Assembly (NCBI GenBank): GCA_020049615.1
Contig: JAIFKN010000242.1
Span: 1-5,092 of the forward strand
Origin: a bacterium
GTDB taxonomy: Bacteria; Planctomycetota; UBA11346
DNA length: 5,092 bases
Direction: 5' to 3'
Shown here: positions 1-5,092 of the stretch, in pieces
Layout of the letters: the number at the start of each line of letters is the position of its first letter
Numbering within the stretch: the stretch's first letter is position 1
The notes under the pieces: generated by a model
The model's database searches: none
Told to the model about the DNA's origin: nothing
Seen by the model: only the letters and a program-made list of their open reading frames with translations
Position numbers and translations under genes: made by a program

Positions 1-206
1 AGCCCGACATCTTCTGCAGCGGCATCAAGGACAAGTACGTGGTCGAGAAGATGGGCGTGCCGTGCAAGCAGCTGCACAGCTACGACTACGGCGGCCCCTA
101 CGCCGGGTTCAAGGGCGCGGCGAACTTCTACCACGAGATCGACCGCATGATCAGCAAGCGGATCTGGAAGATGATCGTCCCGCCGTGGAAGCAGGCAGCG
201 GCCTGA
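1..206 (+). CDS. nifD: Nitrogenase MoFe protein alpha chain NifD (C-terminal fragment, 5' end outside window)
   Basis: Last 67 residues of the alpha subunit of dinitrogenase, which with NifK forms the cytoplasmic alpha2-beta2 MoFe protein that reduces N2 to ammonia at FeMo-cofactor. The frame is read from base 3 (bases 1-2 finish a cut codon) to TGA at 204-206. The fragment shows CSGIKDKYVVEKMG followed by QLHSYDYGGPYAGFKGA. The His encoded at 75-77 corresponds by motif to Azotobacter alpha-His442, the imidazole ligand of the cofactor Mo. The tail FYHEIDRM...PPWK resembles NifD of anaerobe-type (group II/III) nitrogenases rather than group I. AnfD and VnfD also end in a PPWK-like tail, but those genes are normally followed by a small G-subunit gene. 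Here nifK begins 34 nt downstream, leaving no room for one, so NifD is preferred. The P-cluster ligands and the rest of the protein lie upstream of the window. Confidence 0.95.
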   Translation, partial: PDIFCSGIKDKYVVEKMGVPCKQLHSYDYGGPYAGFKGAANFYHEIDRMISKRIWKMIVPPWKQAAA

Positions 207-1614: not shown

Positions 1615-1624
1615 CTCTTTGCTC

Positions 1625-1740
1625 AGGGGCCTCGCCCCTACGGCCCGCTGGGCCTACCCCGGGCTTTGTCGGGGCTCGGTTTCCTAGGGCGAGCCTCGGA
1701 AACCGTGGGCGGATGGGCTTCGCCCATTCTATCCGCCCAC
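1625..1740. repeat. Tiled array of five inverted repeats (REP/BIME-like or structured mRNA element)
   Basis: Five hairpins follow each other with 0-2 nt between them. (1) AGGGGC 1625-1630 with GCCCCT 1634-1639, loop of 3. (2) GGCCC 1642-1646 with GGGCC 1650-1654, loop of 3. (3) CCCCG 1657-1661 with CGGGG 1670-1674. (4) CGGTTTCC 1677-1684 with GGAAACCG 1698-1705. (5) GTGGGCGGAT 1705-1714 with ATCCGCCCAC 1731-1740. All arms are perfect. The array begins 10 nt after the nifK stop and lies wholly outside coding sequence. Small GC-rich palindromes at such positions often belong to dispersed REP-type families, or act in RNA as 3'-end stabilisers or processing sites. That role is inferred here; the pairing itself is directly visible. 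Confidence 0.75.
1705..1740. repeat. Perfect 10-bp inverted repeat with a nested competing hairpin
   Basis: Arms GTGGGCGGAT (1705-1714) and ATCCGCCCAC (1731-1740) are exact reverse complements around a 16-nt spacer. Inside, ATGGGC (1713-1718) and GCCCAT (1722-1727) form a second 6-bp stem with a TTC loop that shares two bases with the outer left arm. The two stems can stack almost completely into one long hairpin. The GGGCTTCGCCC core is a common look of bacterial REP-like palindromes. No poly-T follows, so this is not a typical intrinsic terminator. Confidence 0.75.
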
Positions 1741-1798
1741 CGCCCCTCGGCGCCCGCCCCATCGCTGCGTGACGGGGCCCCCATCCACCCTGACCCAC

Positions 1799-1802
1799 GG
1801 GA
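1799..1802 (+). promoter_or_regulatory. Weak Shine-Dalgarno deciding the nifE start
   Basis: GGGA sits 7 nt before the ATG at 1810. It favours this start over in-frame upstream starts (for example TTG at 1666), which would drag the hairpin array into the coding sequence and add about 48 residues with no family counterpart. Confidence 0.45.
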
Positions 1803-3150: not shown

Positions 3151-4484
3151 CCGCCGTCAGCATCAAGGTCCAACGCCCCGCCGCGACCAACACCTGCCGG
3201 GTCTGCGCTCCACTCGGTGCCGTGCTCGCCTTCCGTGGCGTCCGCGGCTGCGTGCCGCTGGTGCATGGTTCGCAGGGCTGCGCCACCTACATCCGCCGCT
3301 ACCTCATCTCCCATTTCCGCGAACCGATGGATGTGGCCTCGACCTCGTTCACCGAAAGCAGCACGGTGTTCGGCGGGCGCAGCAACCTCAACGAGGCGAT
3401 GGCGAACATCGCCAGCCAGTACCGGCCCGAGGTGGTCGGGGTGTGCACCACCTGCCTGGCCGAGACCATCGGCGAGGATACCCAGGGCATGCTCCGTGAC
3501 CTGGCGCGGGATCCGGCCCTGCCGCGCGCGCTGTTCGTCCCGACGCCCAGCTTCAAGGGCTGCCAGCACCGTGGCTTCCACGATGCGGTCGGCGCGATCC
3601 TCGCCCAGACCGCCGCTGGCGGCGAGCGGCTGCATCAGGTCAACCTCCTCGCTGGGCCGGTGTCGCCAGCCGACCTGCGCCATCTGCGCGAGGTGGTCGA
3701 TCAACTCGGCCTCCCGACCATCCTCTTCCCTGACTACAGCGAAACCCTGGATGGCCCGAGCCTGGCGGAGTACACGCCCATCCCGGCCGGTGGCGTCGGC
3801 CTCGACCAGCTCGCCCTGGCCGGCCGTTCGTCCTGCACCATCCAACTGGGCGCGGTGCTGGAGCCCGGTCCGGGCCACATCCTGGCCGAACGGCACGGCG
3901 TCCCGTTGCGGCGGCTCGGCCTGCCCATCGGGGTGACCGCGACTGACGCCGTCTTCCACGCCTTGGCTGAAGCTGCCGGCGCCCCGCTGCCCGAACGCCT
4001 CATCGCCGAGCGCGGCCGCCTGGTCGACGCCTATGTCGACGGGCACAAGTATCTCGCCGGCAAACGCGTCGCGCTGGTCGGAGATCCGGATCTGGTCGTC
4101 GCCCTGGCCGGATTCTGTACCGAGATCGGTCTGATTCCGGTCCTCGCTGCGAGTGGCGCGATCACCGGCCGTCTGGCCGCGGCCTTGGCGGCGGTCGGCG
4201 TCGGTGGTGCCGAGGCGCTGGAGGATGGCGACCACCAGCACATCGGCGAGCGCATCGAGCATCTGCGCCCGGATCTCATCCTCGGACCGAGCAAGAGCTA
4301 CACCACCTCGCGCAAGCTCAGCATCCCCCTGGTCCGCGTCGGCTTCCCGGTCCACGACCGCATCGGGGCCGGACGCATCCTGCATCTCGGCTACCGTGGG
4401 ACCCAGCGCCTGTTCGACGAGATCGTCAACACCCTCCTGGAGCACAACCAGGACGAAAGCGAGACCGGCTATGCCTATCTCTGA
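3147..4484 (+). CDS. nifN: FeMo-cofactor scaffold protein NifN
   Basis: 445-residue NifN, paralogue of NifK and partner of NifE in the cofactor-maturation scaffold. Recognised by NTCRVCAPLGA (15-25), HGSQGCATYIRRYLISHFREP (40-60), SFTESSTVFGG (67-77), TTCLAETIGED (101-111), PDYSETLDGP (195-204), LGLPIGVTATDAVF (257-270), YVDGHKYL.GKR (296-307), PSKSYTTSRKL.IPLVRVGFP (381-401) and LGYRGTQ (414-420). Cys45 (SQGC) is the family K-cluster ligand (Azotobacter Cys44). Unlike Azotobacter NifN, this protein also has Cys20 and Cys103 where NifK has P-cluster ligands. The ATG at 3147 overlaps the nifE stop as ATGA, with GGGG (3137-3140) 6 nt upstream, so translation is probably coupled. The frame is open back to a GTG at 3108, but that would lie deep inside nifE and is not needed. 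Complete, with TGA at 4482-4484. Confidence 0.96.
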   Translation: MTAVSIKVQRPAATNTCRVCAPLGAVLAFRGVRGCVPLVHGSQGCATYIRRYLISHFREPMDVASTSFTESSTVFGGRSNLNEAMANIASQYRPEVVGVCTTCLAETIGEDTQGMLRDLARDPALPRALFVPTPSFKGCQHRGFHDAVGAILAQTAAGGERLHQVNLLAGPVSPADLRHLREVVDQLGLPTILFPDYSETLDGPSLAEYTPIPAGGVGLDQLALAGRSSCTIQLGAVLEPGPGHILAERHGVPLRRLGLPIGVTATDAVFHALAEAAGAPLPERLIAERGRLVDAYVDGHKYLAGKRVALVGDPDLVVALAGFCTEIGLIPVLAASGAITGRLAAALAAVGVGGAEALEDGDHQHIGERIEHLRPDLILGPSKSYTTSRKLSIPLVRVGFPVHDRIGAGRILHLGYRGTQRLFDEIVNTLLEHNQDESETGYAYL

Positions 4485-5092
4485 CTGCCAGCCCGATGCC
4501 AAGACCGCTGCGCATCCCTGCTTTTCAGCGGATGCGAAGCACACCAACAGCCGCCTGCACGTGCCGGTGGCGCCGAAGTGCAACATCCAGTGCAACTACT
4601 GCAACCGGTCCTACGACTGCGTCGCCGAAAGCCGGCCGGGTGTGACCAGCACGGTGCTCGAACCGTGGCAGGCCGAGCGCTATGCCGAGGAGCTGATCGC
4701 CTCCGATCCGTCGATGACCCCCGGTGACGCCCTGGCCAACGCAGCCGCGTCGCTGGAGACCCTGACCCTGATCCATGCCGCGCATCCGACCGTCGCCCTG
4801 TGCGTGGCGACCAACGGGTTGGCCCTGCCCCAGCACGCCGATGCGCTGGCAGACGCCGGCGTCAGCCATGTCACGGTGACGGTCAACGCCGTCGATCCCG
4901 ACATCGGCAAGTGGCTCTACGCCTGGGTGCGCGACGGGAAGAACGTGCTGCGCGGCCGTGCCGCCGCCGAACTGCTCTGGCAACGGCAGCGCGAAGGCAT
5001 CGCCAAGCTGGTCGCCCGCGGCGTGGTGGTGAAGATCAACACCATCGTCGTGCCGGAGATCAACAGCGGGCACACCGGCGAGATCGCCGCCG
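4471..5092 (+). CDS. nifB: Radical-SAM FeMo-cofactor core synthase NifB (5' part; six-residue gap in a key motif)
   Basis: First 207 residues of NifB, which fuses two [4Fe-4S] clusters and inserts a SAM-derived carbide to make NifB-co for NifEN. Seen: HPCFS (15-19), the radical-SAM motif CNIQCNYC (Cys37, Cys41, Cys44) binding the SAM cluster, YDC then ESRPGVTS (48-60), ATNGLALP (113-120), VSHVTVTVNAVDP (131-143), Y.WV (150-153), RG (161-162) and VKINTIVVPEIN (187-198). The expected MTxxGIAGPGDPLAN reads MTPGDALAN (82-90). Compared with Azotobacter NifB from memory, residue spacing matches from Cys44 to Thr83 and is then exactly six shorter, with no frameshift. This may impair the enzyme or be a sequence error. 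ATG 4471 overlaps nifN by 14 nt and gives a normal N-terminus, and no better start lies before HPC. The SD is poor (GAGA 4461-4464), which suggests coupling to nifN. The C-terminal half is outside the window, so presence of a NifX-like domain is unknown. Confidence 0.93.
   Translation, partial: MPISDCQPDAKTAAHPCFSADAKHTNSRLHVPVAPKCNIQCNYCNRSYDCVAESRPGVTSTVLEPWQAERYAEELIASDPSMTPGDALANAAASLETLTLIHAAHPTVALCVATNGLALPQHADALADAGVSHVTVTVNAVDPDIGKWLYAWVRDGKNVLRGRAAAELLWQRQREGIAKLVARGVVVKINTIVVPEINSGHTGEIAA

Follow-up and report, generated by a model that had tools for sequence, protein, structure and literature searches.

The nif locus and the gap in NifB

The DNA analysed here (the window) is the whole 5,092 nucleotide (nt) stretch of contig JAIFKN010000242.1 from a member of the Planctomycetota (lineage UBA11346), and it carries part of a nif cluster in the order nifD end, nifK, nifE, nifN and nifB start, all on the forward strand (Table 1). 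The subject of this analysis is nifB, the frame of which stays open from 4471 to the window end (207 codons), and in particular residues 82-90 of its product, which read MTPGDALAN. The nearest relative of the window is L001 (JAIFND010000120.1), a contig of a metagenome-assembled genome (MAG) entitled "bacterium isolate Bin_7_3"; L002 and L003 come next, the record of L003 being titled Planctomycetota, in keeping with a planctomycete host. DNA alignment of the window with L001 revealed a single in-frame gap of 18 nt at 4719/4720, where L001 encodes VVGIAG, and this gap is the sole insertion or deletion between the two from window position 3174 to the end; the junction can be placed equally well one base earlier, at 4718/4719. 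The original prediction, which had proposed from the letters alone that exactly six codons were lost at this point, is thus borne out, and its offsets for the Pro of PGD proved correct when measured: counted from the third cluster Cys, this residue stands at +40 in the window, where +46 had been expected and is the value in L001. The flanks, which had been described as intact, are so to judge from the alignment with L001 and the strong conservation of nifB.

Table 1. Features of the window and the evidence for each
Feature	Position	Strand	Evidence
3' end of nifD	3..206	+	TIGR01282, E 1.2e-26, profile 405-466 of 466
nifK, intact, 457 aa	241..1614	+	TIGR01286, 437.4 bits, above cut-off of 427.3
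nifE, intact, 446 aa	1810..3150	+	TIGR01283, 599.8 bits, above cut-off of 505.1
nifN, intact, 445 aa	3147..4484	+	best match TIGR01285, 320.6 bits, slightly below cut-off of 326.8
nifB 5' part, 207 codons, cut by window end	4471..5092	+	TIGR01290, E 1.7e-71, profile 7-208 of 441; Pfam Radical_SAM
CX3CX2C radical-SAM cluster motif, residues 37-44	4579..4602	+	motif scan
Junction lacking 18 nt (codons V-V-G-I-A-G) that L001 has	4719..4720	+	DNA alignment
PGDALAN, what remains of the VVGIAGPGDALAN stretch	4720..4740	+	sequence and alignment
Left end, matching the L001 contig start without a difference for exactly 91 nt	1..91	.	DNA comparison
Right end, matching L001:5225-5315 without a difference for exactly 91 nt	5002..5092	.	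DNA comparison

Closest relatives and constraint on nifB

The window and L001 are 90.6% identical in DNA over ungapped columns and their NifB proteins 95.3% identical when the gap is counted, while the protein P0124 differs from the window NifB at 6 of 207 shared residues. Both L001 and P0124 keep VVGIAG before PGDALAN, in contrast to the window, and the six residues are also present in L002 and L003. The change from Pro to Ala in GDALAN, which had been regarded as a second deviation, is not damage at all, for L001 and P0124 share GDALAN, GDAL is found in L001, L002 and L003, GDALAN occurs in all 15 proteins of the clade (P0121-P0135) and in the crystallised NifB 7BI7, and GPGDAL occurs in 30 of the 239 homologues listed in the searches described below.

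Constraint on the gene is otherwise strong, with a ratio of nonsynonymous to synonymous change (dN/dS) of 0.044 against L001 (6.5 nonsynonymous and 40.5 synonymous differences in 207 codons), although the last 91 nt are the same as in L001, maybe through assembly, and this lowers the figures a little. With L002 and L003 as outgroups the window branch was assigned no amino-acid change and the L001 branch one, with three unplaced. Since nifB is strongly constrained and shows no decay, the gap either arose very recently or is not real. The family search, which covered 23 genomes as the family of the L001 genome, those of L002 (G002) and L003 (G003) among them, found nifB at one place in the sister genome (G001), a MAG for which completeness is not given and in which contig C35 carries the one gene in three pieces. 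A piece of window nifK DNA matched a single place in the sister MAG, at 94%, and the sister MAG therefore has no second, closer copy of that piece. The record of L002 is titled Candidatus Kuenenia stuttgartiensis, but the stretch has a G+C content of 66.9% and its nif genes group with those of L001 and L003, so that the label looks wrong, Kuenenia being low in G+C.

Search for other NifB proteins with the gap

The gapped protein, used as query, brought up 1318 relatives, and the full-length L002 NifB gave 6757 matches among 8000 candidates scored; 120 proteins from each were listed and inspected, together amounting to 239 distinct proteins, which sample the relatives and do not exhaust them. 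None of these 239 shares the gap, though the collection is clustered at 90% identity, and an individual protein with the gap might be concealed within a cluster such as P0124. The pattern G[ILVM][AS]GPG[DE] is matched by 236 of the listed proteins and the other three read VVGFAGPGD, VVGIAGPED and VIGIAGPGY. The Pro of PGD lies at +46 in 233, at +45 in one and at +47 in another; the remaining four, all of which carry AGPG, gave no valid offset, three being caught by an earlier chance GPG and P0064 being cut so that it lacks Cx3Cx2C.

A further search, directed at the residues that flank the gap, gave 71 candidates, of which 21 matched, none being gapped and all belonging to the listed set already. 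In addition, 97 loci were compared, a set in which several places are repeated (some family-search loci cover L001-L003 again), and the gap was found in none of the 96 that matched, L088 giving no match. The exact junction sequence had no match in viral contigs, and among the publications listed on NifB deletion, NifB structure, or nifB pseudogenes and metagenomes, none has a title that announces this gap. In the data examined, the 18 nt loss is thus private to the window contig.

Motifs, structure and expected function

The fingerprint motifs of NifB set out by Arragain et al. (2017; PMC5715403) include HPC, Cx3Cx2C, ExRP, AGPG, TxTxN and Cx2CRxDAxG. The window NifB shares Cx3Cx2C, as well as HPC, ExRP and TxTxN, which start at residues 15, 53 and 135 respectively, whilst AGPG, present in 238 of the 239 listed homologues, is absent and replaced by MTPGD. 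The positions of Cx2CRxDAxG and of the NifX-like domain fall beyond the window end. Against TIGR01290, the window nifB scores 241.2 bits with a cut-off of 343.65, a figure that covers the first half of the protein only, and the same part of L001 scores 270.2. The gene is still nifB by descent, without one motif that would be expected of a working NifB, the enzyme that builds NifB-co out of SAM and two [4Fe-4S] clusters.

The crystallised NifB proteins 6Y1X, 7BI7, 7JMA and 7JMB are homologous to P0124 over approximately its residues 12-280. Both 7BI7 and 7JMB carry VIGVAGPGDALAN, the former reading GDALAN like the clade of the window, and unlike the window NifB there is no gap at the AGPG segment in the alignments of 6Y1X, 7BI7 and 7JMB. 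If the gap is real, NifB should lack activity, since half of the AGPG fingerprint and part of strand beta-2 are gone, and the expectation in the original prediction of a disabled protein is supported. It had also been suggested that the protein might bind SAM by a divergent solution. One form of this would be a working enzyme with PGDA slid back six residues into the strand beta-2 position to rebuild the site that holds the methionine part of SAM. The absence of the gap from every homologue examined lends this no support and a working NifB of this kind is considered very improbable.

Assembly error or recent deletion

An important consideration in deciding whether the gap exists in the organism is how the contig ends. 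Stretches without a mismatch between the window and L001 are longest at exactly the two window ends, 91 nt each, the next longest being 86 and 74 nt, and the two contigs begin at the same base. Runs that long at both ends arose in none of 2000 shuffles of the mismatches, which ignore the clustering of conserved sites, although some shuffles reached 137 nt somewhere. Next to the runs of 86 and 74 nt, a length of 91 nt is not extreme in itself; what is extreme is that exactly this length recurs at both ends and that the two contigs start together. These features suggest that the two contigs derive from a single de Bruijn graph with a k of about 91 and were cut at k-mers common to both. One account of metagenome assembly (PMC7111523) states that scaffold ends often overlap by the length of the largest k-mer or by one base less, and that local assembly errors do occur, with one assembler suspected of being especially prone to them. 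The nifB of L001 has a defect of its own, lacking 7 nt that are found in L002 and L003 at L001:5315-5316, a site that immediately follows the shared 91-mer and coincides exactly with the end of the window. The frame changes at this point, through which the P0124 protein continues.

The proposed course of events is that several close strains of one metagenome were assembled together, so that conserved stretches shared between strains, such as the AGPG block, would form branch points in the graph, and a contig joined across a branch point without overlap could lose a few bases. The 7 nt loss in L001 would fit the skipping of a short shared graph edge during joining, and by analogy the 18 nt gap may be an error from a similar join. 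Few parts of nifB are as conserved as the AGPG block, which is a likely break point, since P0064 starts exactly with the six missing residues, VVGIAG. Six of the listed proteins lack a Met start, namely P0064, P0130 and P0141 together with three that begin near the N-terminus; P0130 and P0141 start at the conserved cluster-motif block, and the starts of all three named proteins are probably contig breaks at conserved stretches. A number of observations weigh against an assembly error. The window resembles a single graph edge between two branch points, the inner bases of which should be backed by reads, and the junction has beside it no 91-mer that is also present in a known strain, L001 differing at 5 sites in the 91 nt to the left and at 13 in the 91 nt to the right, and P0124 at residue 62 to the left and residue 107 to the right. 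The junction, moreover, lacks the overlap that many joining steps need, and neither the window nor L001 contains an N.

The alternative is a real and very recent in-frame deletion, giving a nifB null allele in one strain with the nif cluster otherwise intact. Such a deletion would remove the start of the GGE-like loop together with part of strand beta-2, SAM binding or folding is predicted to be abolished, and the strain would be expected to make no NifB-co and to fix no nitrogen unless another nifB exists. The gap is indeed exact, it keeps the frame and it lies between intact flanks in clean sequence; between branch points, de Bruijn contigs usually have read support; and the fact that no amino-acid change is placed on the window branch fits a very young event. 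The broken frame of L001 may even indicate a population in the course of losing the gene, but two separate nifB lesions in sister contigs are unlikely as real mutations under such constraint, the more so as the frames of nifK, nifE and nifN are unbroken in both. Furthermore, the L001 lesion lies exactly at the end of the shared 91-mer, and homology at the window junction amounts to just one base. Such a deletion is accordingly regarded as a serious possibility that falls short of being probable. A recent deletion and an assembly error had been among the options offered in the original prediction, and they were the right pair; the 91-nt ends and the defect of L001 itself lead us to lean towards the second. 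An assembly artefact is thus mildly favoured, and not proven, so that the organism probably carries an ordinary NifB.

Repeats and other features

Several repeats were noted around these genes. An insert of approximately 88 nt stands between nifD and nifK at L001:224-306 and has no counterpart in the window; it includes an inverted repeat of 29 nt (97% complementary). At the nifE-nifN junction of L001 (L001:3213-3386) lies a repeat of the GAGCTTTGAGCTT type, its arms inverted, which alters the NifN start and recurs at 9570-9675 (9.6 kb); none was found in the window. The nifK-nifE spacer (window 1615-1800) contains short G+C-rich palindromes, e.g. GGGCTTCGCCC, which are common to L001, and nifK itself is aligned without gaps to L001, L002 and L003. 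A DNA hairpin was considered as a cause of the lesions and rejected, the folding z values being unremarkable throughout: -1.18 for the stretch of L001 that spans the 18 nt, -0.57 at the junction in the window and -0.66 around the defect of L001. Among plasmid records, the best-ranked match reached 68.9% identity over 75% of the query.

Significance

The window shows an ordinary NifB that is damaged, either in the gene copy itself or, with greater likelihood, in its assembly. Should the gap be an artefact, assemblies of mixed strains can drop invariant active-site residues with the frame unbroken, and annotation would accept such a gene as normal. If it is real, the window holds a nifB null allele in an otherwise intact nif cluster, and a tally of nif genes would class the strain as a nitrogen fixer in error. 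Ideas on radical-SAM chemistry would be altered by nothing short of a working variant, which is unlikely.
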